This document shows, piece by piece, positions 32,338 through 50,890 of a stretch of 64,000 nucleotides of DNA. The notes beneath the pieces were generated by a model. That model saw nothing but the letters and a program-made list of their open reading frames with translations. It had not been told where the DNA came from and ran no database searches. The position numbers and the translations under genes are program-made. Numbering within the stretch: position 1 is the first letter of the stretch; every line of letters starts with the position of its first letter. Source of the stretch: Halovivax ruber XH-70 (GTDB lineage Archaea > Halobacteriota > Halobacteria > Halobacteriales > Natrialbaceae); contig NC_019964.1 of the NCBI RefSeq assembly GCF_000328525.1, positions 2,046,001-2,110,000 on the forward strand, written 5' to 3'.

Positions 32338-32350
32338 TGGGACCGCCGAG
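32338..32350 (+). other. attL core, 13 bp
   Basis: TGGGACCGCCGAG is identical to 50820-50832, which is the 3' end of tRNA-Pro (complement) plus one flanking base. It marks the left limit of the integrated element, 54 bp beyond the integrase stop codon. Confidence 0.85.
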
Positions 32351-32403: not shown

Positions 32404-33492
32404 TCATGTATCAGCCTCCTTGTTGAGGAATGACCGCCGAGACTGCATTCGGCGGATCGGGTCGGGGTGGTCATAGTGCGCCCTGATGACCTCAGGGGTG
32501 GCGTTCACTCGTTCGGCGACGACCTCCGGCGGCCATCCCTCGTCGCGCATATGGGTGATCGCGCCGGTTCGGATTGGATGGGGAGATCGTGAACTTGGGC
32601 AGCGCGCTTCGTGTCCGTGTTTCAGCGCCTCGCAGTTCTCCTCGTCGCGGTTGTGCGGGCACGTCCCGTAGCGACAGGGCTGAGTCAGGATATAGATGTC
32701 TCGCCTAATGCTCGACTTCGAAACGCGGGCGTTGTCGCCCTTCTCGGTCGTGAATAACGGCCGTCGGTCGCCGTCCGACCGCTTCGCCCGTTTGACCTGG
32801 ATGTAGCTTTTGATCAGGCTGGCAACGTCGTCAGACAGCGCGACGGGGCGCTCTCCCTGTTTCTTGTTCTTCAGCGGCGTGTCGGTCTCGGGCCGGTGGC
32901 GGAAGTACAGGAACGGGAGATCGACCTCTTCGAGCGCTTCGTGATCGATGTCGTCCTGGTGGCGTAGACGATCGAGGTCCGACGGCTCGAAGAAACAGTC
33001 TTCGAGATCGAGCGCGCGAAGCCCACCCAGCCGGCACCCGCAGTGCCAAGCAATCGCGAAGATAGCGTGGCGGCGTGATGCCCGGTCGTACAGTTCGAGG
33101 TCTTCGAGGATCTGCTCGGCTCGTTCAGCGCGAACGAGCTCGTCGTTGACTCGCTCCGCTAACTCGACTGTCGGAACCTCGACCTTCTCGTACAGGCCTT
33201 CGGGGACGGCTTCGAGTCGGTCGCAGAACTCGAGGAAGAGCTTCAGCGTTCCGAGCTGAGTCTTCAGTGTCGCCGGGCTGAGCCCTTCGCTCCGGCGCTC
33301 CGAATCGTACCGAAACACGTCACGACTCGTCAGGTCGTTCAGATTGTCGATTTCCTCCTCATCGCACCACTCGACAAACGATTGCATCCGGTAGCGGTAG
33401 CTCTCGATCGTCGCCTCGGATCGAGTAGACTGCAGCCGTTCAAGCCATAGTTCGAGCGCTTCGAGAGGGCTGAGTGGTTCGAGCTCGCTCAC
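32404..33492 (-). CDS. int: Tyrosine recombinase / integrase (SNJ2-type)
   Basis: The 362-residue protein has a SAM-like core-binding N-terminus (ALELWLERLQSTRSEATIES, residues 10-90) and a tyrosine-recombinase catalytic domain. The first Arg is in CGCRLGGLRALDLED, HxxR is HPIRTG, and the nucleophile Tyr is in IRAHYDHPD near the C-terminus. A Cys-rich insertion (CRYGTCPHNRDEENC) may bind zinc. It catalyses integration and excision at the tRNA-Pro core. The GTG at 33492 is preceded by GGAGGT at the right spacing and overlaps the previous stop (GTGA). A longer upstream reading is the complement of the small-gene coding sequence and is rejected. Confidence 0.93.
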   Translation of the reverse strand: MSELEPLSPLEALELWLERLQSTRSEATIESYRYRMQSFVEWCDEEEIDNLNDLTSRDVFRYDSERRSEGLSPATLKTQLGTLKLFLEFCDRLEAVPEGLYEKVEVPTVELAERVNDELVRAERAEQILEDLELYDRASRRHAIFAIAWHCGCRLGGLRALDLEDCFFEPSDLDRLRHQDDIDHEALEEVDLPFLYFRHRPETDTPLKNKKQGERPVALSDDVASLIKSYIQVKRAKRSDGDRRPLFTTEKGDNARVSKSSIRRDIYILTQPCRYGTCPHNRDEENCEALKHGHEARCPSSRSPHPIRTGAITHMRDEGWPPEVVAERVNATPEVIRAHYDHPDPIRRMQSRRSFLNKEADT

Positions 33493-33659
33493 TGTCTTAC
33501 CTCCTGTCCGGCGCGATCGCGGCGCTTGGCTTCGCGATAGGCGTGTTCGATCTCCCGCGCGCAACTGGCGCAGACGTAGCCCTCGGGAGTGATCTCCTCG
33601 GCCGTCCCGTCGCAGCGCGGCGTGTCGCACTGGCCGGGTTCAACGGGTTGGACGCTCAT
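33489..33659 (-). CDS. Small zinc-binding protein cotranscribed with the integrase
   Basis: The 56-residue product (MSVQPVEPGQCDTPRCDGTA at the N-terminus) has Cys-x4-Cys then Cys-x2-Cys (VCASCARE), a treble-clef or zinc-ribbon pattern, followed by a basic helix. Its ATG overlaps the stop of the preceding micro-ORF (ATGA) and its stop overlaps the integrase GTG (GTGA). Its 3' end contains the integrase ribosome site. In SNJ2 small genes cotranscribed with the integrase regulate recombination direction, so a recombination-directionality role is plausible here by position. Confidence 0.8.
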   Translation of the reverse strand: MSVQPVEPGQCDTPRCDGTAEEITPEGYVCASCAREIEHAYREAKRRDRAGQEVRQ

Positions 33660-39695: not shown

Positions 39696-40235
39696 GTGCA
39701 CCGGCTTTTCATTGCAATCGCGACGGTAGCACTGGCGCTGTGTCTCGCGACCGGTGGCGTCGCGGCCCAAGCCCAAAACGCGAGCAACGAGACGACGGCG
39801 GCGGCCGGCGACGACTACCAGGAGGTTATCGACGAGGACACACGAATCACCAACTGGCAGTATTCGCCGGGCCAGTTCCTCATCACCATCCAGGCTGACG
39901 CATCGACGTCAATCTCACTCACCGAAGCTGGATCGTTCGACGAGGGAACCAGCCAGTTCAACTACGGCGAGCGCGAGCTCGAGGAAGGTGAGAACGTCAT
40001 CCGGTTCTCGGTTACCGACCGCCAGGGTGCGGCCGTCGCGATCGCGACGAGACAGTCACTCCAGAACGGCGGCGGCGCGATCGTCTCGACTGGCGCCGTC
40101 GAACGCAACCCGATGAGCAATTTCGGCGGTGAAAGCGGACTGCTGTCCGGTATCGCGATCACAGTCGCGATGGCCGGACTCGGCGCCTTGTACGTCGTCC
40201 GTTCGGAAGACAGCGGGGTGAGTGTCGCATCATGA
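39696..40235 (+). CDS. Virion-operon membrane-anchored secreted protein
   Basis: The 179-residue protein has a signal peptide (LFIAIATVALALCLATGGVAAQA), a beta-rich ectodomain (ITNWQYSPGQFLITIQADAS), and a C-terminal TM helix (LSGIAITVAMAGLGALYVV). It starts with a GTG at 39696, 2 bp after the spike stop, and its stop overlaps the next ATG (ATGA). The position corresponds to the conserved small membrane-protein gene after the spike in pleolipoviruses. The exact role is unknown; a spike partner is plausible. Confidence 0.72.
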   Translation: MHRLFIAIATVALALCLATGGVAAQAQNASNETTAAAGDDYQEVIDEDTRITNWQYSPGQFLITIQADASTSISLTEAGSFDEGTSQFNYGERELEEGENVIRFSVTDRQGAAVAIATRQSLQNGGGAIVSTGAVERNPMSNFGGESGLLSGIAITVAMAGLGALYVVRSEDSGVSVAS

Positions 40236-41026
40236 GCGAGCTCGGTACTACCTTCGCCTCCTGGAAGGACCGCGCGACCTACCTCGCCGCCGAAGCGCAG
40301 CTGCTCATCATCGGCCTCGTCTTCTCGATCGGCGCGCTGTTCTTCTACTTCAAGCCAGAACTGCCAGGCATTCCGCCCATCGCCCACGGCTGGCTCGCCG
40401 CGCTCATGATCTTCGGGCCGCCGCTGCTGGCGATGTTCGTCACGGGCGCCCGGCGGCTTCGCGACCGACACCGGGTCACCGTCCACCACATTAACGCCGT
40501 GACCGACGAACGCGAGAAGTACAACGTCGAGCCCGGCGTCTGGGACGAGAAGACCGTCGAAGGCCCGTCTCCCTACGTCGTTAACGACGGCGACGCCTAC
40601 GAAGTCCGGGAGTTCGAGTGGCACGCGGACACGGAGACGCTGATCGTCACCGGGTGCCACTTCTCAGAACTCGCCGACTCGAAACTCATCACGGTGAAGG
40701 CGATGCTGGAAGACATCCACGGCCAGCTGATCGAGACGGCGATCGCCTACAACAAGTTGCGAGCTCGAATCTCGCGCATGGGCGTCGAGATCGAACGCGA
40801 CGTGGTGAACTTCCAGGCCGAGGCCGACGAGCGTGGGCTAATGGGCCAGAAAACGGCGGTGAAAGAACGGTTCGAGGCGGCCGAAGACGAAGCGCAGGAG
40901 TGGGACACCGACGAGATTCGCGACCTCGGCGACTACGAACACGAGTACGATCCCGTCGCGAACCCCGAAGGCGTCACCGTCGACACCGGCCATCAGGCCG
41001 CCACGGACGGAGGTGAGCAGCGGTGA
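40232..41026 (+). CDS. Virion-operon protein with two TM helices and coiled coil
   Basis: In this 264-residue protein two TM helices lie at residues 18-75 (AQLLIIGLVFSIGALFFYFK; GWLAALMIFGPPLLAMFVTG). A cytoplasmic alpha/beta domain follows, then a charged coiled coil (RISRMGVEIERDVVNFQAEA). The C-terminus reads ATDGGEQR because the ribosome site of the next gene is embedded in it. It is the position of the conserved ORF7-type gene of pleolipoviruses, probably an assembly or inner-membrane factor. It overlaps the ATPase gene by GTGA. Confidence 0.72.
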   Translation: MSELGTTFASWKDRATYLAAEAQLLIIGLVFSIGALFFYFKPELPGIPPIAHGWLAALMIFGPPLLAMFVTGARRLRDRHRVTVHHINAVTDEREKYNVEPGVWDEKTVEGPSPYVVNDGDAYEVREFEWHADTETLIVTGCHFSELADSKLITVKAMLEDIHGQLIETAIAYNKLRARISRMGVEIERDVVNFQAEADERGLMGQKTAVKERFEAAEDEAQEWDTDEIRDLGDYEHEYDPVANPEGVTVDTGHQAATDGGEQR

Positions 41027-42195
41027 CCGACGAACAGGAGATCTTCACCGCGGCGCAACTCCGGGAGCATCAGGACGGCTACCAGGCACGCGAGAACCGC
41101 GAACTCCTCCCGCACACGGGCATCGTTCGGGACCCAAAGATCGAGCGGGCGCTCTCGATCCGCGCCGTCCACTACGATCCAACCGACTGCGACCGGCCCG
41201 ACGAACTCCCGGCGAAGTCCAAAGACCTCGATAAGCACCGCCAGATCCAGCGGATCGAAGGAACCCAGGTTGCCCGCCAGGCACTCGAAAACGGCGACAT
41301 GGCGACGGTCAAGCACCTCACCGGCGACACCAACCAGCGCGCGGACGTGAGCGGCATTCAGGCGATCGGCAACGTCGACGATCTCGTCACCGGCCCGGCG
41401 TCGATCATCTACATCTACGCCGAGCCCGGCAGCGGGAAGACTGACTTCGCGCTCCTGCTCGGCCAGCGCTGGCGTCACCACCAGCCGGGGGACGCCCTGG
41501 TCGCGTCGAACATCCAGACGCTCGAAGAAACCACCGAGTGGACCGATGACGACGGCCGGCTTCGCGACGGCTGGCTCGCCAACTACGGCGCGCTCGACGA
41601 GTGGATCAAGCAGGACGGCGAACCCACCGAGAACGCACAGACGCCGAAGCTGTTCATCTTCGACGAGGCGAGCTCGCACGCCGCAGGTGGTGGCGCGCAG
41701 GGCTACGAAACCCGCCAGAAGATGGGGCCACTCGTCTACAAGATCCGCAAGTACGGTGGGTCGCTGATCATTATCGGCCACGACGGCGGCGACGTCCACC
41801 CGATGGTTCGCGAGCAGTCGAAGGTGGTCAAGAAGGACGGAAAGAAAGAGGCGACAATCTACGACTCGATCCGGAATCGCAAGCCCCAGGGCAAGATCGC
41901 GGGCATCACCGGAATCCCGCCGACTGACTGGCGCTTCGACACGCACGAGGCGACCGCCTGGAGTTGGCACGACCTGCGAGCCGAGGACGAAGACGACGGA
42001 CTCGACGAAGCCGAGGCGGTCGAGCAGGCCGCGATCTACACCGTGATCCGGGCGAAACAGCAGGGAATGAGTAACCGCCAAGTCGCGAAATTCGTTCCCT
42101 GGAGCCACGAGACCGTCCGGAAGCGCTGGAACGAGTATCAGAACGACGGCCGGTACACCGACACGGTTGCCAACGTCGAGGGCGTAATCGCATGA
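41023..42195 (+). CDS. P-loop ATPase with C-terminal HTH (pleolipovirus VP8-like)
   Basis: The 390-residue protein has Walker A YAEPGSGKTDFALLLGQRWR near residue 130 and Walker B LFIFDEAS near 210. A sensor-like strand is GGSLIIIGHDGGDVHP. The C-terminal helix-turn-helix MSNRQVAKFVPWSHETVRKR lies near 350. A conserved P-loop ATPase ends the virion gene block in pleolipoviruses (VP8). It may move genome DNA or act in assembly at the membrane. It starts with a GTG overlapping the previous stop, with a GGAGGTG ribosome site. Confidence 0.8.
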   Translation: MTDEQEIFTAAQLREHQDGYQARENRELLPHTGIVRDPKIERALSIRAVHYDPTDCDRPDELPAKSKDLDKHRQIQRIEGTQVARQALENGDMATVKHLTGDTNQRADVSGIQAIGNVDDLVTGPASIIYIYAEPGSGKTDFALLLGQRWRHHQPGDALVASNIQTLEETTEWTDDDGRLRDGWLANYGALDEWIKQDGEPTENAQTPKLFIFDEASSHAAGGGAQGYETRQKMGPLVYKIRKYGGSLIIIGHDGGDVHPMVREQSKVVKKDGKKEATIYDSIRNRKPQGKIAGITGIPPTDWRFDTHEATAWSWHDLRAEDEDDGLDEAEAVEQAAIYTVIRAKQQGMSNRQVAKFVPWSHETVRKRWNEYQNDGRYTDTVANVEGVIA

Positions 42196-42785: not shown

Positions 42786-43673
42786 CTACCACCAGATGGC
42801 AATCGGATGAACAACTTTCCCAGGCCCTTCTACCCCCATATGACGATCTTCCATCATAATATCTCGCCCAGCGGCGATCTCCCTAATCGCTTCATTAAAT
42901 GGAGTGCCAGCATCTTCTGATAACGCTTTCAGAGTACGGATCATGTCTCCGGGAACCCATGAGTCATTGGTACCGATTCGTCCTTCTATTCTTCCAAAGA
43001 CGGTGTAGGGCCGGGGAGAAGAGAAAGCGTGCGCTAGTGGAGTCCGCTTAGAGTCTCGACGCAACGGTACTGCATATGATTGACCATCATCATCTAACCT
43101 GAGAGGCACTCTATCTGAATGTAGTCTCTTTGCCATTGATGCCGTCGCTTTGTTACCCTTGGCCTTTTCCCCCATTAGACCCAACTCTTCAATTAATTCA
43201 TCATCAACGTCGGGGGAGTTTTCAACAGTTTCAGCTGCTTCGCTAAACGCCTCTCCCCAAGATGCTATGGCTTCATCGTGTAGTTCAATCCGGAAAAGAG
43301 ACATCGCCTCCATTTCACCTTCTATTTTCACTACATCTCCAAAACTCACTCCCTCATCGGATGGGTCTTTGATTTCTATTCCTTCGGATTGGAATTCCTT
43401 CTGTAGCCGGTCAAACCGATAAGGTGCTGTCAATTTAATTTGTTGTTGGAAGTTTTGTGAGTCCAGCTCCCTTTGACTCACTTCGGCATCCACAGCGCCT
43501 GCAAATAGAGGTAGTATAGACCTTAATCGCCCCTGACGTTCACTCTCCGATTCGGACTCCCTTTGGGCATCAGTAGCGACACCTACCCCTATTGAGGAAA
43601 GATGGCCATTAATGCTCTCTTCGTCTAAATATACGAATTCACGTGGCTCCGGGTCATGCCATTCTGAAGACAT
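42786..43673 (-). CDS. DUF6414-like protein (AT-rich cargo gene)
   Basis: The 295-residue soluble protein has an N-terminus REFVYLDEESINGHLSSIGV that resembles DUF6414 proteins. A Glu/Ser/Gln-rich helix and a segment with LTAPYRFDRLQKEFQSEGIE follow, then an OB-like strand set (FGDVVKIEGEMEAMSLFRIE). A C-terminal beta domain ends the protein (RPYTVFGRIEGRIGTNDS). It has no catalytic motif I recognise. The gene is clearly AT-richer than the virion operon and uses A/T-ending codons. ATTTAATAA at 43694-43702 is a good TATA box for a leaderless start at 43673. The family's function is unknown. Confidence 0.7.
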   Translation of the reverse strand: MSSEWHDPEPREFVYLDEESINGHLSSIGVGVATDAQRESESESERQGRLRSILPLFAGAVDAEVSQRELDSQNFQQQIKLTAPYRFDRLQKEFQSEGIEIKDPSDEGVSFGDVVKIEGEMEAMSLFRIELHDEAIASWGEAFSEAAETVENSPDVDDELIEELGLMGEKAKGNKATASMAKRLHSDRVPLRLDDDGQSYAVPLRRDSKRTPLAHAFSSPRPYTVFGRIEGRIGTNDSWVPGDMIRTLKALSEDAGTPFNEAIREIAAGRDIMMEDRHMGVEGPGKVVHPIAIWW

Positions 43674-43775
43674 ACAACTATTTCAGTGAGAGGGTTATTA
43701 AATATCCGTCACTAATGGTTAGCCAGTCCAGAATCTGGTGACAAAAAGAAGCTCGAACAAATACTCAGGTACTCT

Positions 43776-44030
43776 CTATTCTTTTGAAACTATAACCTCA
43801 GAATCTACATTGAAACGAACAACTCTCGTCGAGAGTGTCTCGGCGATCTCCTGACGCTGTTCGGCAGTGAGGTCGTCGCGCTCGAGTACCTGGCGCGCTG
43901 CCGCGACGAGTTCGGGAACGTCCTCGCACGCCTGCGTGACTGCCTTCGTCTTGTTACACCCGTAGTAGTCCGCTGCTCGCTCGATCACGTCCTTTCGGTA
44001 CGCGTAGTCACCGTCGGTGCGGATTCGCAT
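43776..44030 (-). CDS. Small haloarchaeal protein (DUF7692-like)
   Basis: The protein of about 84 residues, MRIRTDGDYAYRKDVIERAA onward, has helices YYGCNKTKAVTQACEDVPEL and LTAEQRQEIAETLSTRVV. It resembles small haloarchaeal proteins often found in plasmids and proviruses, possibly RHH-like or antitoxin-sized. The ATG at 44028-44030 is chosen over one 12 bp upstream because AAAAACTAGG at about 44057-44066 sits at TATA distance. It lies between the DUF6414-like gene and the divergent membrane-protein gene. Function unknown. Confidence 0.6.
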   Translation of the reverse strand: MRIRTDGDYAYRKDVIERAADYYGCNKTKAVTQACEDVPELVAAARQVLERDDLTAEQRQEIAETLSTRVVRFNVDSEVIVSKE

Positions 44031-44310
44031 ACTCGTACACACGGACCCCCGAATCCTAGTTTTTTCGTCTCACTGGACCCGGCCCACAGCCCATAATCGG
44101 GGGTAGTTCTGTCAGACTGGCTGAGTGGTGCCGGGCCCGCGGGCTCGATCGGCACGGGATATGCACACGGCCAGCTGGCGCTCGTGTGCATATTCGGGAA
44201 ACCGGTTCTCTCGACGCGCAAGTGGTGGGGATAACAGGTGAAAGGTCAAAATGATGGATTGGTGATTGCCCAATCCTTATATTCAAAACAACCTTCGTTT
44301 CTACCAATAA

Positions 44311-44844
44311 ATGAATCTAAACCCTACGATCATAGGGGCCATTATTGGGGCGATTGGTACCTTCATTACAATTCTGGTCGGCCGTATCCTATTCTACCAG
44401 TGGGAAAGATACCTGAAGAGACAGAAGATACGTAATGCCTTTCTAACGGAAATTGACAATATTGTTGAAAAAACAGAAGAGATGAATAGGCGCAGAAAGG
44501 AGAAAAGCGACGTTTGGACAACCCCCATGGGGAGAAGTGAAAACATACGTATACTCTTAGAAGAAGTTCCTACGCCAGTATTCGAGAATAGTTCAGAACT
44601 CCTCTATGAACTTTCCCAAGAAGAAGCAAGGTGCATCATCGAGCTCTATACAGAAGTTCAAATGTCGAGATGGTTTGAAGCGCCGGATTCCTATGATGAA
44701 CAGGGAATTACAACACGCTTCAACGTCCACAAGGTTAGAAATAAGGCCAATATAGCTATTGGAGAAATAAACACGCAGAGGGAAAACGACAAGCCATGGG
44801 GATTTTCCATTGAACTTCCGTCTTCTAAGAGCTTAGGTCGGTGA
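44311..44844 (+). CDS. Single-TM protein of unknown function (AT-rich cargo)
   Basis: In this 177-residue protein an N-terminal TM helix (IIGAIIGAIGTFITILVGRI) is followed by a cytoplasmic helical domain rich in Lys/Glu (RNAFLTEIDNIVEKTEEMNR). The second half includes YELSQEEARCIIELYTEVQM. Lysine is frequent and the DNA AT-rich, unlike the surrounding provirus. CTTATATTC at 44277-44285 lies at TATA distance from the ATG, giving a leaderless mRNA. I recognise no family. Together with the convergent two-TM gene it could form a membrane-acting pair. Confidence 0.65.
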   Translation: MNLNPTIIGAIIGAIGTFITILVGRILFYQWERYLKRQKIRNAFLTEIDNIVEKTEEMNRRRKEKSDVWTTPMGRSENIRILLEEVPTPVFENSSELLYELSQEEARCIIELYTEVQMSRWFEAPDSYDEQGITTRFNVHKVRNKANIAIGEINTQRENDKPWGFSIELPSSKSLGR

Positions 44845-44909
44845 GTTACAGTTTCGAAATTGCCGCAAGTTCCATTACTGGAGCTATAACCCCAGGAATG
44901 GATATATCA

Positions 44910-45659
44910 TCAGTCCTGCTCAAGGTAGGAGGGGATCCTATCATCAACAGTTCGACGCACTTGCCGTCGTATGAATTCTCCTGAGTTCATGCCTGCGCAC
45001 TCCTGGACCTCTTCCTTCAACTCGGCCGATATCCTCCCATACAGTCCTGCATTAATCGTTCTGATAATAGATAGAATCACTAAGCAAATGTGGGTTGATG
45101 GAGATAGTAAGCTCCGGTTCCATAGAAACTTGGACACAATCAAATTCCAATCCCTATCGTTGTTGCGGATGTCACCCGGCATTTCCACCAATTCCTGATT
45201 GAACTTAGTTACTAAATCAGCATTTGTTTTTATCTGATGGATCAATATGTTCAACAGCAACATGGCACCAACGCCACTGATTCCTAATCCAATTCCTACA
45301 ACTTTGAACGCGGTTGATACTATTGAAGAATGAATTTCCAATACACCGACAACGGTGAGACCACCTCCCAACCCTCCACATGCTGCGGCAATATAGTAAG
45401 TTATGATTTTAGCCTTTGAAACCCAATCCTCAAATATCGAGATAAGTTCTGACAACTTGTTGGTTTGGTTAAACTTCTTAGCGTCTGTACCGGCATTCTG
45501 AGCTAACTCAGTCAGTTTTGAAATCTCAATATCATAATTCTCCTTAACATAATCCGTTTGTGTTCCCTTGTAATACCAACTCAAGAAGTCTTGCTTCACC
45601 GATTCATGTATTATGGGAAAGTAACCTATGTCAAATACAAACTCTGAAAGACTTCTCAT
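44910..45659 (-). CDS. Two-TM protein of unknown function (AT-rich cargo)
   Basis: In this 249-residue protein an N-terminal soluble region of about 90 residues is followed by two TM helices (IITYYIAAACGGLGGGLTVV and VGIGLGISGVGAMLLLNILI). A helical region follows, with KTNADLVTKFNQELVEMPGD, a weaker hydrophobic stretch (ICLVILSIIRTINAGLYG) and a basic tail. It is AT-rich like its neighbour. A TATA-like TATATGGG lies about 25-30 bp before the ATG. The layout recalls SLATT-type pore-forming effectors only in its paired helices; I do not assign that family. Confidence 0.65.
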   Translation of the reverse strand: MRSLSEFVFDIGYFPIIHESVKQDFLSWYYKGTQTDYVKENYDIEISKLTELAQNAGTDAKKFNQTNKLSELISIFEDWVSKAKIITYYIAAACGGLGGGLTVVGVLEIHSSIVSTAFKVVGIGLGISGVGAMLLLNILIHQIKTNADLVTKFNQELVEMPGDIRNNDRDWNLIVSKFLWNRSLLSPSTHICLVILSIIRTINAGLYGRISAELKEEVQECAGMNSGEFIRRQVRRTVDDRIPSYLEQD

Positions 45660-46394: not shown

Positions 46395-48068
46395 CTATCG
46401 GTGCTGCACGTACCGGGCGCGGCCGCGATTCGCGTCGAGATACCGGCGAGCGGCGGCCAGTCCGCCGTTGACCTCGACCTGGGCCTGGCGGAACCGAACC
46501 GGGTCTTTCCCGGCGTCACACCAGAGGCGATAGGCTTCGCTGAGCCGGCGCCGGGCGTCGTGCGTCGAGGCGACGTCACCGAGTCGAATCTTCAGGCGGG
46601 CGTCGGCTCGATCGTCGACATCGACACCGTGCTTCGCGCACCACGCCATCAGCGCACTCGTTGTCTCGTCGAGCCCACGGTCGGCCGCGGCGACTGCTTT
46701 CGCGCCCGCCTCGACCGCCCGTCGAGTCGCGTCTTTCGCCTCCTGCACCGCGTTGTGAACGAGTTCGGCGATGTGGTTCGACCGGAGCGACACCCGGCCG
46801 TATTCGCTCTCGACGAGCTCGGGGATGCGGTTGAGCGCACGGCGAACGCTATCCTCGTGACGGCCTTCGGCGGCGGCGATATCCTTCGGGGCGACCTCTC
46901 CGCCGTCGGTGACGAGATATTCGAGCGCTTCCCACTCGACGGGCGAGAATCCGCCGTCTGCCAGGTGACGGATCACGACCGACTCCTGGTGAGACTGGAT
47001 CTCGGTCAAGTTGAGTTCGACCAGCTCGCGCTCGATCGAGCGGGACGGGTCGAAATAGCGATCCTCGACGAACGGCCCACCGCCACCGCTCCCGTCCTGA
47101 GGATGAACGTTGATCCCCGCGTCTGCCAGCACCGCGAGCAAGGTCTCGTCGAGCTGACGGACGAGATCGCGAAGGCTCTCGGGATCGACACCGACCGACT
47201 CGTCCCACCGACTCGCCTGGTAGGAGACCTCGACCTTCGGGTTCTTGATCGGGTGACTCGATTCGAGAGACTTGTACTCTCGGGACTTGTAGTGCTTGAT
47301 CTCGCGGGGTGCACGGTGGCCGGGGAACGCTTCGGTGACGCGTTCCGGACCGAGCGTGACCGTGTGATAGTAGCCGGGCACGGTCTCGCCGTCTTCGTCG
47401 CAATCGTTCTGGACGACCTTCCGGTAGCCAGTCCGATCGGATTCGAGCAAGTGGCCGAGATTCGCGATCGGCCCATCCCGGGCGTGGACCGGACCGCTCC
47501 GGTCGTCGTCGACGCGCACGTACCGGGCCAGGTCCTGGACGTTCGAGTACTCGTGTGGATCCTCGAAGTAGCCGGCGCTGATATCGACGGATTGGAACGC
47601 CCGCGCGACGAGATCCTGATACCGGAACACATCGACGTTACTGCCCTGCACGCGGACGTTCACCGCCTCGCTGATCCCGGTCGGAATCGACAGTTCCGAC
47701 CGCTCGCCGTAGCTGTTCTCGACTTCCATTCCCTGCCAGCGTGGGGAAAGGTGGGCGTTCAGCCGTTGTTTCTCGATCGGGTCTTCATCCGACGAGCGCT
47801 CGATCGCGAGGCGATACTCCCGTATCTCGTCGATCGCGATCGGCGTTCCCTGTGGTGTCTCGTCGCCCGGATGGCAGATACCGCTCTCTTGGTAGTACAG
47901 GGTCGCTTTCCACTGCTCGCCATCGAGTTTGAACGCACCCGTTCGAGACCCGCCGCCAGTCTTGATCGACTGGAAACAGGCGAAATAGGGGTTCAGCCCA
48001 TCGTCCGCAAAGATGTAGTTGAGCGCGACCTCGTGGGTCTGGGGCTCAACTGCCTCGATCGTGCTCAT
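46395..48068 (-). CDS. Large provirus protein, candidate replication initiator
   Basis: The 557-residue protein is the largest gene of the leftward operon. The N-terminal two-thirds are alpha/beta without a classic Rep or polymerase motif that I can point to (LNYIFADDGLNPYFACFQSI; DVFRYQDLVARAFQSVDISA). A C-terminal winged helix follows at about 385-450 (EWEALEYLVTDGGEVAPKDI, then HEDSVRRALNRIPELVESEY), then a helical tail. Betapleolipoviruses carry a large, poorly characterised putative replication protein at the equivalent place. The ATG at 48068 overlaps the previous stop (ATGA) and has a GGAGGA ribosome site. A repeat-rich non-coding region follows it. Confidence 0.65.
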   Translation of the reverse strand: MSTIEAVEPQTHEVALNYIFADDGLNPYFACFQSIKTGGGSRTGAFKLDGEQWKATLYYQESGICHPGDETPQGTPIAIDEIREYRLAIERSSDEDPIEKQRLNAHLSPRWQGMEVENSYGERSELSIPTGISEAVNVRVQGSNVDVFRYQDLVARAFQSVDISAGYFEDPHEYSNVQDLARYVRVDDDRSGPVHARDGPIANLGHLLESDRTGYRKVVQNDCDEDGETVPGYYHTVTLGPERVTEAFPGHRAPREIKHYKSREYKSLESSHPIKNPKVEVSYQASRWDESVGVDPESLRDLVRQLDETLLAVLADAGINVHPQDGSGGGGPFVEDRYFDPSRSIERELVELNLTEIQSHQESVVIRHLADGGFSPVEWEALEYLVTDGGEVAPKDIAAAEGRHEDSVRRALNRIPELVESEYGRVSLRSNHIAELVHNAVQEAKDATRRAVEAGAKAVAAADRGLDETTSALMAWCAKHGVDVDDRADARLKIRLGDVASTHDARRRLSEAYRLWCDAGKDPVRFRQAQVEVNGGLAAARRYLDANRGRARYVQHR

Positions 48069-48358
48069 CGGTCCTCCTCCGCGGCCCGCTCGGTCTCGAC
48101 CAACCCGGACAGGACCGCCGTCGGGTTCCACCACGTCGCGGTCTGGCAGCGGTAGCAAACGTGCTTGAACGACGTGAGTGCCCTCGCGTCGAGCGTCACC
48201 GGGTCCGCATCGGTCGTCTTCGTGACCTCCGACGGCCGGACGCGCTTGACGTGGACCGTCTGGCAGCCCGTGCAGATCGCGTCGACGGGGATGCCGCGGT
48301 GACCGGCTCGCGGACTCGCGAGCTCGGCGCCCAAGTCGCGATCGGTCTCCACACTCAC
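48065..48358 (-). CDS. Small zinc-binding provirus protein
   Basis: The 97-residue protein has two CxxC pairs (AICTGCQTVH near residue 30 and HVCYRCQTAT near 69), which together would bind one zinc ion. A hydrophobic/aromatic WWNPTAV segment and an acidic tail follow. It starts with a GTG overlapping the previous stop, and its stop overlaps the candidate replication gene's ATG. It belongs to a series of small zinc proteins in this operon. Function unknown. Confidence 0.72.
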   Translation of the reverse strand: MSVETDRDLGAELASPRAGHRGIPVDAICTGCQTVHVKRVRPSEVTKTTDADPVTLDARALTSFKHVCYRCQTATWWNPTAVLSGLVETERAAEEDR

Positions 48359-48546
48359 GGCAGATCACCCGCCTTGATCGGCGTGCGCGACTGGTTCGGC
48401 AGCCGGCGTGGCTTGTACTGCCGCGCCTTCGGATACGCGGTCTGGCAGCCCACGCACAGGGTGAGACCGACACCCTCGTCCGGCGGAACGTATACCGTCG
48501 CGAGTCGCGGGTTCACCCGGTCAGAACACTCGAAACACCGGGTCAC
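48355..48546 (-). CDS. Small zinc-binding provirus protein
   Basis: The 63-residue protein has CxxC at residues 4-7 (MTRCFECSDR) and CxxC at about 31-34 (LCVGCQTAYP), then a basic Arg/Lys/Gln tail. It reads as a single zinc finger with nucleic-acid-binding charge. The GTG at 48546 overlaps the methylase stop, with GGAGGTG embedded in the methylase 3' end. Function unknown. Confidence 0.72.
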   Translation of the reverse strand: MTRCFECSDRVNPRLATVYVPPDEGVGLTLCVGCQTAYPKARQYKPRRLPNQSRTPIKAGDLP

Positions 48547-49421
48547 CGCTGCTCACCTCCATCGGTCGCGGCAACGAGAGTCTGCTGGTGGGTCGAATCG
48601 TCGACGAGTCCGGCCGTCGCGTCCGGATCGAAGTTCGTCACCAGGCGCTCAGTGTTCTCCTGCTCCCAGTCGCCCTGACCCGACCGCATCGTCCCGCGGG
48701 CCGACCGTTCGATCACGTATTGCTCGCCCTCGAGCGAACGCGGGAGGTCGGTGTAGGAGACGATCCACTTCCCCTCGATCTCGTCGAGGACCTGGGTAAA
48801 GCGGTCGTGGTCAAACCCGCCCTCGTGGGAATAGAGATCGTCGCCAACGTCGACATACGGCGGATCGAAATAGAACAGAGTGTCTTCGGCGTCGGTTCGC
48901 TCCACCAGATCGGCGTAATCACGATTCGCCAGCTGGACGTTACGCAGTCGATCGGCGACCGCGTGGAGCTTTTCGCTCCGGTTTCGATAGACTCTCGCGT
49001 GGTTTCTGGCCTGGCAGAGACGGAAGCCACTGAAGCCGGTATACTTCTGTGCAAACTGCGTGTTCCGCAGGTAGAACCACCGACCCGCTCGCTCGAGGTC
49101 GTCAGCCGGTCGGTAGCCTGCGTAAAACTGGTGAGCGTACTTCCGGTGCAGGTCGCGACTGAACGGCGTGTTCGAAAGCCATTCGACGAGTTCCGCCTCG
49201 CGATCGCGAAGCGTCTCGTAGAAGTGAACGATATCGCTGTCGCGGTCGTTGAAGATCTCGACCGTGCTACGCGGCTTCTGGAGCATGACCGCAGCGCTGC
49301 CGCCGAACGGTTCGACGTAGCAGTGATGCGCCGGGAACTGCTCGATGATCCAGGTCGCGAGTCGCCCCTTGGAACCGGGGTACGGGAACGCGCCCGTTCG
49401 CTCGAGCCCATCACTCGACAC
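48543..49421 (-). CDS. Dam-type (D12 class) N6-adenine DNA methyltransferase
   Basis: The 292-residue protein has the SAM-binding motif I at the N-terminus (FPYPGSKGRLATWI, then YVEPFGGSAAVML) and the catalytic DPPY (LFYFDPPYVDVGDD) near residue 190, the D12/Dam order. The central target-recognition part contains RNTQFAQKYTGFSGF. No cognate restriction endonuclease gene is evident beside it, so it probably protects viral DNA or times replication. I prefer the GTG at 49421, 6 bases after GGAGGTG, over the GTG at 49430, which lies inside that ribosome site. Confidence 0.9.
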   Translation of the reverse strand: MSSDGLERTGAFPYPGSKGRLATWIIEQFPAHHCYVEPFGGSAAVMLQKPRSTVEIFNDRDSDIVHFYETLRDREAELVEWLSNTPFSRDLHRKYAHQFYAGYRPADDLERAGRWFYLRNTQFAQKYTGFSGFRLCQARNHARVYRNRSEKLHAVADRLRNVQLANRDYADLVERTDAEDTLFYFDPPYVDVGDDLYSHEGGFDHDRFTQVLDEIEGKWIVSYTDLPRSLEGEQYVIERSARGTMRSGQGDWEQENTERLVTNFDPDATAGLVDDSTHQQTLVAATDGGEQR

Positions 49422-49704
49422 GGTGATCACCTCCTGGCTGCCCGTGACAGTCGTTCAGCGACCATCTGAGTTGGAAGCAAAGCGCGCCAAGGTCTGCGAG
49501 TTCCTCGGCGACGCGTTCTGGGTCGCCACCTTCGTAGGCAGCTTCGAGGAACGCCTGAGCGAGTTCTCCCTGTTCCTCTTGCATCGCCAGCAGTAGGGTT
49601 TCAACGTCCTGCAGGCCCCACTCCTCGACGTTCTCCTCGGCTTTCCTCCCCCATGACTGGCCGATATAGAGGTAGTGCCGGCGCCCCGTCTCCTCACTCG
49701 ACAC
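49411..49704 (-). CDS. MazG-like nucleotide pyrophosphohydrolase-like protein
   Basis: The helical protein of about 97 residues has the all-alpha NTP-pyrophosphatase pattern: QEEQGELAQAFLEA (the E-E-x2-E helix) followed by ERVAEELADLGALCFQL (E-x2-D helix), which bind Mg and hydrolyse (d)NTPs. Viral MazG proteins adjust nucleotide or alarmone pools. I start it at the GTG at 49704, after GAGGTGG; the GTG at 49713 is an alternative. It overlaps both neighbours by about 11 bp. Confidence 0.75.
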   Translation of the reverse strand: MSSEETGRRHYLYIGQSWGRKAEENVEEWGLQDVETLLLAMQEEQGELAQAFLEAAYEGGDPERVAEELADLGALCFQLRWSLNDCHGQPGGDHRVE

Positions 49705-50221
49705 GGCGACCACCTCGCGATTCGTCGACCGTCTCCGGGTCGATCACGTGCGACCACGCGAGTTGCGCGACCTCCTGCTCGGACCGGTCAGCGTCGACAT
49801 CGTACCACCGACCGCGGAGGAGTTCGTCGACGAGCGTCGCAGGCACGATCGCCCGCGCCACGTTCGGCAGGCCCGGCCAGGGCACGTACACCGCGAGTAG
49901 GTACATCCCGGCCGCATCGAGCAGCTGCTCGTGTGCGCGACGCTTGACGTAGAACCGGCCGCGGGTCGACCGCGAACCGTTGCTCGTCCGGACCTGGCAG
50001 GCTTTGATCTCGATCGGCGTCTCCGGCTCGACGACCACGATCCCGTAAAACGGCAGCGTCGTCGACGGTTCGAGGAGGCCGGTTGTCTCCGCGTCGTGCC
50101 AGGTGGCCGTCGCGTCGCCCACGTAGCCCAACGCGTCGACCGCCTGGATCACGTCGGCCTCGATCGCGTCACCGCTGGCCTTCGGGCTCTCGATCTCGCC
50201 GAGGCTCGCTCGCGAGCTCAC
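49694..50221 (-). CDS. PD-(D/E)XK-type nuclease-like provirus protein
   Basis: In this 175-residue protein, after an acidic N-terminus, a strand-loop (YGIVVVEPETPIEIKACQVR) carries the E-x-K of the PD-(D/E)XK fold. It is followed by RGRFYVKRRAHEQLLDAAGM and a hydrophobic strand (YLLAVYVPWPG). The upstream acidic residue may be Asp in ATWHDAETTG. Catalysis is not certain. It may be a recombination or genome-processing nuclease. It starts with a GTG overlapping the previous stop by GTGA. Confidence 0.68.
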   Translation of the reverse strand: MSSRASLGEIESPKASGDAIEADVIQAVDALGYVGDATATWHDAETTGLLEPSTTLPFYGIVVVEPETPIEIKACQVRTSNGSRSTRGRFYVKRRAHEQLLDAAGMYLLAVYVPWPGLPNVARAIVPATLVDELLRGRWYDVDADRSEQEVAQLAWSHVIDPETVDESRGGRRVE

Positions 50222-50337
50222 GGAAGATCACCTCGCGCTTTCCGCACCTCGCGAACGCACTCGGGACACAGGCGGCTCGTCGCGGCGGCCGGATCGCCGC
50301 AGCGCTCGCAGTCGTCGCGTTCGACGAGTCGGGTCAC
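50218..50337 (-). CDS. Tiny zinc-finger protein, 39 residues
   Basis: The product MTRLVERDDCERCGDPAAAT, then SRLCPECVREVRKARGDLP, has two CxxC pairs (C-ER-C and C-PE-C) about 15 residues apart, a single zinc knuckle with a basic helix. The GTG at 50337 and the stop overlap both neighbours by GTGA, and the ribosome site GGAGGTG lies in the preceding gene, so it is very probably translated. Function unknown. Confidence 0.7.
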   Translation of the reverse strand: MTRLVERDDCERCGDPAAATSRLCPECVREVRKARGDLP

Positions 50338-50468
50338 GCCGGCTCACCTCCGGCCTTCTCGACGGCCTCACGGACTTCGATGTCGCTCGCCTGTTTCGCC
50401 GGGTGAACGAACGTCGAGCGCGTCTGCACGTCGTACAGCACCGACGCGGGAACGAACGCGTCGGTCAC
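50334..50468 (-). CDS. Small provirus protein, 44 residues
   Basis: The product MTDAFVPASVLYDVQTRSTF, then VHPAKQASDIEVREAVEKAG and GEPA, has one or two strands and a helix and no Cys. It is held in the overlapping chain: GTG at 50468 overlaps the previous stop, its stop overlaps the next GTG, and its 3' end encodes the next ribosome site (GGAGGTGAG). I recognise no family. Confidence 0.6.
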   Translation of the reverse strand: MTDAFVPASVLYDVQTRSTFVHPAKQASDIEVREAVEKAGGEPA

Positions 50469-50701
50469 AGTCGCTCACCTCCGTCGGTCGCGACCTGGCG
50501 ACTGGACCCGGGTAATCGAATGCTACGCGGACAGTCCCAGTTGTGACCAACTTCCTGAACGCCGTCAGTGAGCCGCGTACACCGGCGCCCACAGTCCGGG
50601 CAGAAGAACTCTCGACTCTTCTCCGCGGTCGGATGAGCATAGTGTCGACGGCGGAGTTCGTCGGCGTCGATCTCGTCGACCAGGGCGGCCAACGACTTCA
50701 C
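50465..50701 (-). CDS. First gene of the leftward early operon, zinc-binding protein
   Basis: The protein of about 78 residues has an N-terminal helical part (KSLAALVDEIDADELRRRHY), then CPDCGRRC (three Cys) and a later Cys in NWDCPRSIRL, a zinc-ribbon-like site. The C-terminus VATDGGERL contains the next gene's ribosome site. The GTG at 50701 is preceded by GGAGG; a GTG at 50710 is possible. As the first gene after the promoter it may be an early regulator. Confidence 0.7.
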   Translation of the reverse strand: MKSLAALVDEIDADELRRRHYAHPTAEKSREFFCPDCGRRCTRLTDGVQEVGHNWDCPRSIRLPGSSRQVATDGGERL

Positions 50702-50819: not shown

Positions 50820-50832
50820 TGGGACCGCCGAG
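50820..50832 (+). other. attR core, 13 bp, within the tRNA-Pro 3' end
   Basis: Identical to attL (32338-32350). Twelve of the 13 bases are the acceptor-stem 3' strand and the adjoining T-stem bases of the tRNA gene, so the tRNA stays intact after integration. Confidence 0.85.
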
Positions 50833-50890
50833 AGTCGAACTCGGGTCCTACGGACCCCATCCGCAGAGGATACCACTACCCCACGGTCCC
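50821..50890 (-). tRNA. tRNA-Pro(GGG)
   Basis: The 70-base cloverleaf reads on the minus strand. Acceptor GGGACCG pairs with CGGTCCC, the D-arm is GGGTAGTGGTATCC, the anticodon stem is TGCGG/CCGTA around loop ATGGGGT (anticodon GGG, codon CCC), and the T-arm is CCGAG-TTCGACT-CTCGG. CCA is not encoded, and there is no intron. Its 3' end is the integration target of the provirus. Confidence 0.96.

Follow-up and report, generated by a model that had tools for sequence, protein, structure and literature searches.

The provirus and its genomic setting

The window, that is the whole stretch of 64,000 nucleotides analysed here, comes from Halovivax ruber XH-70, whose genome is a 3,223,876-bp single contig. 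Judged from gene content, the segment 32338-50832 is a betapleolipovirus-like provirus, bounded by a 13-bp putative att repeat and a tRNA-Pro gene (Table 1). Homologues of the hypothetical protein that the family conserves and of its NTPase were found in order, together with an integrase and a putative att at the tRNA. The genes at 40232 and 41023, assigned to two phrog families, also match SNJ2, HHPV3 and HRPV-3. By its NTPase, the closest named locus is that of Halovivax asiaticus, which is 93% identical. No relatives were found in an IMG/VR scan with the NTPase as query, and the relatives of the provirus were taken from genome contigs (9 loci) and whole genomes (a match in 124 of 392).

Between the two modules of the provirus lies a block of about 400 bp (43823-44228) that is 85-87% identical in L038 and L047, with a partial match in L048, and is possibly an origin or regulatory region. 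A low-GC stretch (42786-45659, GC 0.47-0.53), also between the modules, holds a DUF6414 gene and two other genes and looks like cargo. The 557-aa DUF7845 protein F08 (46395-48068) shares about 25-32% identity with the allele of most relatives; its identity is 59% to L084 and 90% to L279, with a change near the F08 start. In genome G001, related proviral operons beyond L047 were found in L279 (6388-10448) and L280 (9842-15293), the NTPase of L280 being matched over its last 70 residues only.

Table 1. Features of the provirus and its gene joints (positions in the window; SD, Shine-Dalgarno)
Feature	Position	Strand	Details
Putative att, left copy	32338..32350	+	13-bp direct repeat TGGGACCGCCGAG
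Provirus tyrosine recombinase (integrase)	32404..33558	-	PF02899, PF00589
Joint 1 upstream gene	40232..41026	+	264 aa, phrog_3526, tail QAATDGGEQR
Joint 1	41009..41028	+	20-mer: SD GGAGGTGA, spacer GCAGCG, overlap GTGA, then CC
Joint 1 downstream gene	41023..42195	+	390 aa, phrog_1979, putative NTPase in relatives' annotation
Joint 2 downstream gene, F06	48355..48546	-	63-aa cysteine-rich protein
Joint 2	48541..48560	-	second exact 20-mer
Joint 2 upstream gene	48543..49421	-	D12-class adenine DNA methyltransferase (Dam), PF02086, tail VAATDGGEQR
24 bp upstream of F06 start	48547..48570	-	identical in L279 (element 2 of G001), whose upstream gene there codes for an unrelated DUF6884 protein
11-bp overlap, MazG-like gene / Dam gene	49411..49421	-	GTGTCGAGTGA
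11-bp overlap, 175-aa gene / MazG-like gene	49694..49704	-	GTGTCGAGTGA
Gene behind joint 4, F02	50218..50337	-	39 aa, zinc-ribbon-like
Joint 4	50332..50351	-	3 mismatches, tail EKAGGEPA
Gene behind joint 3, F01	50334..50468	-	44 aa
Joint 3	50463..50482	-	3 mismatches, tail VATDGGERL
First early-operon gene, F00	50465..50701	-	78 aa
Putative att, right copy	50820..50832	+	13-bp direct repeat TGGGACCGCCGAG, at tRNA-Pro gene 3' end
tRNA-Pro	50820-50890		

Anatomy of the gene joints

A search of the window found the 20-mer exactly at joints 1 and 2 and with 3 mismatches at joints 3 and 4, all four sites lying inside the one provirus. The initial annotation had described the first three, with the tails ATDGGEQR, ATDGGEQR and ATDGGERL and a next gene starting GTG ACC, and both the positions and the tails were confirmed; joint 4 had been left out of it. 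In the whole 3.22-Mb genome there are 6 matches at no more than 3 mismatches, 4 of them inside the provirus, and dinucleotide shuffles gave a mean of 0.01 matches, so that, as raw DNA, the sites cannot be put down to chance. The proper null for sharing of the 20-mer is, in turn, the set of other SD overlap joints and not shuffled DNA.

All four sites are real gene joints. The upstream gene ends GGAGGTGA-N6-GTGA, in which its TGA stop and the GTG ACC of the next gene overlap by 4 bp, resulting in a layout of SD, six-base spacer and GTGA stop/start overlap. In the reading frame that ends at the upstream stop, GGAGGTGA encodes Gly-Gly-Asp/Glu. A role of the 20-mer as a promoter or a recombinase site was rejected, since every copy in the window is a joint between reading frames, with the spacing of an SD.

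What had been taken for a repeated cassette is probably an ordinary translational-coupling joint. The explanation that we prefer, and hold to be probable, is that the 20-mer is such a joint and that the joints of the early operon are also gene-exchange points, two of them with retained tails. The upstream gene carries the full SD GGAGGTGA within its last codons, and its TGA stop six bases past the SD overlaps the next GTG; by this explanation, terminating ribosomes would reinitiate there. The Gly-Gly-Glu/Asp forced by the SD, together with a GC-biased spacer, would then make two unrelated joints identical. Coupling is predicted here from published work. In the part of Huber et al. 2019 (PMC6728339) on haloarchaeal overlapping pairs, tests of 14 pairs (9 from Haloferax volcanii and 5 from E. 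coli) showed coupling in 13, and 6 of the 7 H. volcanii pairs examined reinitiated less once the SD was removed, the SD share being variable. The provirus pairs resemble those pairs in their stop/start overlap and in an SD inside the upstream gene, here at the usual spacing; they differ in that all eight bases of the SD often match, the operon is viral, and coupling is a prediction.

The joints also resemble the start-associated sequences (SAS) of Cluster K phages, described in the relevant part of PMC3203893 as a repeated short SD-containing sequence just upstream of starts, found before many non-structural genes. Those are 13 bp long and much more copious and uniform, with 93 sites identified over the phages studied, whereas the Halovivax genome holds the 20-mer exactly only twice and six times at no more than 3 mismatches, instead of many near-identical copies.

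Frequency of the joint and the chance of identity

The joint occurs throughout the order. Across 146 genomes of the order, the pattern GGAGGTGANNNNNNGTGA was matched 626 times and its reversed form 24 times, and 137 of the genomes have matches. Overlap joints of the form GGAGGTGA-6-RTGA are denser in the proviral loci, numbering 30 in 43 loci with flanks (698,640 bp) versus 1 in a 445,000-bp chromosome sample.

The chance of two joints sharing all six spacer bases is 0.0033 as estimated from 37 spacers and 0.0021 from the 150 joints listed of the 626, and 5 of 946 pairs were identical in spacer among 44 joints of IMG/VR contigs. Among the window's four joints, the chance that two match exactly in spacer is about 2%. 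The earlier claim that a ribosome site would need less identity than is seen holds only weakly, at about 0.2-0.5% per pair and this 2% for the provirus. Furthermore, a search of 61 genomes for the form GGAGGTGANNNNNNGTGACC gave 48 joints with two further identical within-genome pairs, one of which (G014) was dropped as a segmental duplication, while the other (G025) is an identical 20-mer pair in two unrelated chromosomal operons. Given the spacer odds and the G025 pair, the exact match of the 20-mer is only a mild surprise. Among the 150 listed joints, identical pairs numbered 17 of 529 within genomes versus 1.1 expected and 91 of 10,646 across genomes versus 22 expected, where the expectations take positions as independent and the counts include duplications and orthologues, from which the excess stems in part. 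Two exact 20-mers in IMG/VR lie at joint-like sites, and thus show only that the joint is widespread; the upstream open frame at L007 has only 32 codons.

Pure chance and codon bias, with no history needed, would explain the match with these spacer odds, with an identical 18-mer pair in 6 of the 26 genomes listed (some probably duplications), and with GCGACCGAY, which makes up 14 of the 45 sampled ATD codings. Such an explanation is quite improbable in view of two long shared tails that exceed all unrelated pairs scored and of spacers that follow the upstream gene, both given below.

The ATD residues and the tail of the core gene

The two exact copies of the 20-mer lie in opposite modules and on opposite strands, and the ATD codons before them differ (GCC ACG GAC versus GCG ACC GAT). 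The 264-aa core protein upstream of joint 1 and its orthologues have a C-terminal AATDGG conserved at the peptide level. In this family, ATDGG was found in 25 of 49 distinct orthologue tails (53 loci), with nine codon sets for ATD; GGAGG was kept in 24 of these 25 tails and GGAGGTGA in 5. ATDGG was absent from the orthologues of SNJ2, HHPV3 and HRPV-3, the three isolates compared. The sequences downstream of the orthologues differ, which together with the nine codon sets argues that the tail is old and held at the peptide level. On these comparisons, the upstream tail at joint 1 is inherited and not swapped in, and its ATD part would be an old tail, kept at the peptide level, of a pleolipovirus core protein. 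PMC10599561 assigns the genes lying between spike and ATPase to the core of Pleolipoviridae, and this status makes joint 1 an unlikely swap point. An origin of joint 1 as a copy of the Dam joint was rejected, as the ATD codons differ and the upstream tail is inherited.

The ATD motif was also counted at other joints. GCNACNGAY before a joint was found in 13 cases in 9 of 146 genomes, and the TAD permutation before an SD joint in none of the 146; without an SD (GGS GGS), ATD and TAD numbered 15 versus 4. Outside Halovivax lie 6 of the 13 ATD joints, mostly in cellular-looking operons (classed by eye from translations), and the ATD joint of L270 precedes a homologue of provirus gene F01. ATD stands at 7 of 29 SD joints in three Halovivax genomes versus 6 of 597 elsewhere, with orthologues included, and as it is commoner in Halovivax, simple chance plus constraint cannot account for it in every case. 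No part of the coupling-joint explanation accounts for the preference of ATD over TAD.

One alternative holds that ATDGG is a selected haloarchaeal C-terminal peptide, serving stability, solubility or contact, which was recruited at joints because the SD already supplies GG. It would fit the many codon sets in the core family, the order of ATD over TAD with and without an SD, and the cellular-looking operons that carry ATD. We regard it as possible though doubtful, since ATD is so rare at joints outside Halovivax and 24 of the 49 distinct tails of the core family, the three isolates included, are without ATDGG.

Gene exchange in the early operon

Eight Halovivax elements were compared, namely those of the window, L047, L279, L280, L048, L082, L083 and L084. 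Their early operons have 61 joints, 48 of which show an overlap of 4 or 11 bp and an SD. The F06 gene behind joint 2 has four upstream families across the eight relatives: Dam, a DUF6884 protein, a second DUF6884 protein that clustered apart, and a 35-aa protein. Alignment blocks of the window DNA stop at joints in L047 (48066-48566 and 50218-50348), in L048 (48087-48560) and in L038 (48066-48369 and 49688-50494). Neighbour exchange among related genomes is thus seen at the early-operon joints and not at joint 1. The initial annotation had proposed that viral genes are swapped along such junctions, and this has partial support for the early operon, where the neighbour changes in eight Halovivax proviruses coincide with joints. 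It is not supported for the exact copies that had inspired it: these sit on opposite strands and in opposite modules, the gene pair of joint 1 is kept together in its family, its upstream tail is conserved at the peptide level with differing sequences downstream of the orthologues, and identical joints of unrelated genes also occur in chromosomes, as in G025.

Identity around the joints, averaged over the 61 joints including F03 before F07 in element E3, which is a missed gene, changes at the start codon. When the upstream gene is the same and the downstream gene different (31 pairs), identity upstream of the start codon is 0.58-0.61 (0.61 directly before it), save for a value of 0.47 at -27 to -15, and falls to 0.23-0.37 past the start codon. 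When the downstream gene is the same and the upstream gene different (48 pairs), identity is 0.46 in the spacer, 0.36 at -27 to -15, and 0.31 and 0.29 beyond 27 bp upstream. Unrelated joint pairs (1644 pairs) gave 0.41 just before the start codon, in the spacer, 0.29-0.45 past the start and 0.28-0.30 farther upstream. In 37 gene-pair combinations from 43 loci, in which the pairs are not independent, the spacer followed the upstream gene (0.51 versus 0.34 shuffled, p at most 0.0025), a pattern that tells against pure chance, and less clearly the downstream gene (0.45 versus 0.35 shuffled, p 0.06). The spacer and identity profiles suggest that, in most cases, an upstream gene keeps its tail and the ribosome site. 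By the preferred explanation, the early-operon joints would be points where related proviruses exchange whole genes, and in the usual exchange the tail and ribosome site would remain with the upstream gene, so that similarity would end at the start codon.

Two long shared tails

Tails were scored as identity extended upstream from the start codon, against a null of 1240 unrelated joint pairs with a maximum of 17; 4 of the 61 joints (gap >30 bp, probably a missed gene) were dropped, and F11, F18 and F26 were placed with F01 on visual inspection of the N-termini. Two of 14 replacement combinations lie above the maximum for unrelated pairs, the other 12 scoring 0-15. In the best provirus pair at joint 3, a stretch of 29 bp with a single mismatch (score 26) is common to the first genes F00 and F17, which are unrelated; in the best pair at joint 2, Dam and a DUF6884 gene share 24 bp before F06 (score 24). 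Outside the tail, blastp of the upstream proteins found no convincing similarity, with best E values of 0.097 and 0.26, and downstream of the stop 0 of 9 combinations exceeded the unrelated maximum of 7. Across 43 loci, the two extra G001 elements not being among them, a scan of 92 combinations against 28,263 unrelated pairs (maximum 20) gave no further clean long-tail case. The combination that scored highest there (39) reflects similar DNA in two relatives that was read in two frames; the second (23, L114/L115) lies beside an N base and a near-tandem copy, and neither was counted.

Tails of 24-29 bp appear to be the trace expected from a gene replaced with its tail kept. At these two joints the upstream gene would have been replaced and 24-29 bp of the old tail retained, and it is through this retained tail that unrelated proteins would share ATDGGE by descent.

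A second alternative is that the joints are short conserved homologies at which host or virus recombinases cross over, the 20-mer copies being swap products. The coincidence of exchange points with joints in eight early operons and the two unrelated-gene pairs with a common tail agree with it, as does the retention of overlap and SD at 48 of 61 joints despite neighbour changes, for which random end joining would need selection. However, selection that keeps genes intact and the ribosome site working predicts the same breakpoints as homology-driven exchange; most replacement combinations stay within the unrelated-pair maximum, and the exact copies lie on opposite strands and between unrelated pairs, one of which is core and syntenic. 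This crossover at joints is thus unlikely, although it retains some chance.

The closest precedent for the tails is found in mycobacteriophages of Cluster I, where, as given in the part of PMC3029335 on Island3, the unrelated neighbours 67 and 68 have 18 C-terminal residues and 60 bp in common at their 3' ends. There the sharing was explained by recombination and likened to short conserved boundary sequences. The Island3 event is clearer than that of the provirus, as the shared piece is longer and the genomes before and after are nearly identical elsewhere. The provirus is also like the mosaic Pleolipoviridae, in which a stable core that includes the gene beside the ATPase is set against other, variable modules; the relevant part of PMC10599561 treats modules and plasmid exchange, whereas the provirus case is one of single-gene exchange at ribosome-site joints.

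A second joint type and the cassette reading

An overlap of 11 bp was found at 7 of the 61 early-operon joints, all of the form GTGTCGAGT(G/A)A. At these joints the start VSS(D/E/N) recurs in unrelated genes and the ending RVE in the genes upstream of them, a sharing that is due in part to the 11-bp overlap itself.

A broader proposal is that the early operons of Halovivax pleolipoviruses are interchangeable single-gene cassettes plugged at joints, with tails and starts passing between unrelated proteins and ATDGG selected as a peptide. The last codons of each gene would carry the ribosome site of its successor, so that any cassette would fit any other, and recombination at the joint would pass on the tails ATDGGE and RVE and the start VSSDG. 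We consider this rather improbable as a whole. The preferred explanation, if right, would show for one archaeal virus family how tightly overlapping operons can still exchange single genes, with the ribosome site placed in a dispensable tail and tails passing between unrelated proteins. It would also caution that common C-terminal peptides in compact genomes need not imply common function. The GTGTCGAGT(G/A)A overlap word itself is also present in L048, L082, L083 and L084.
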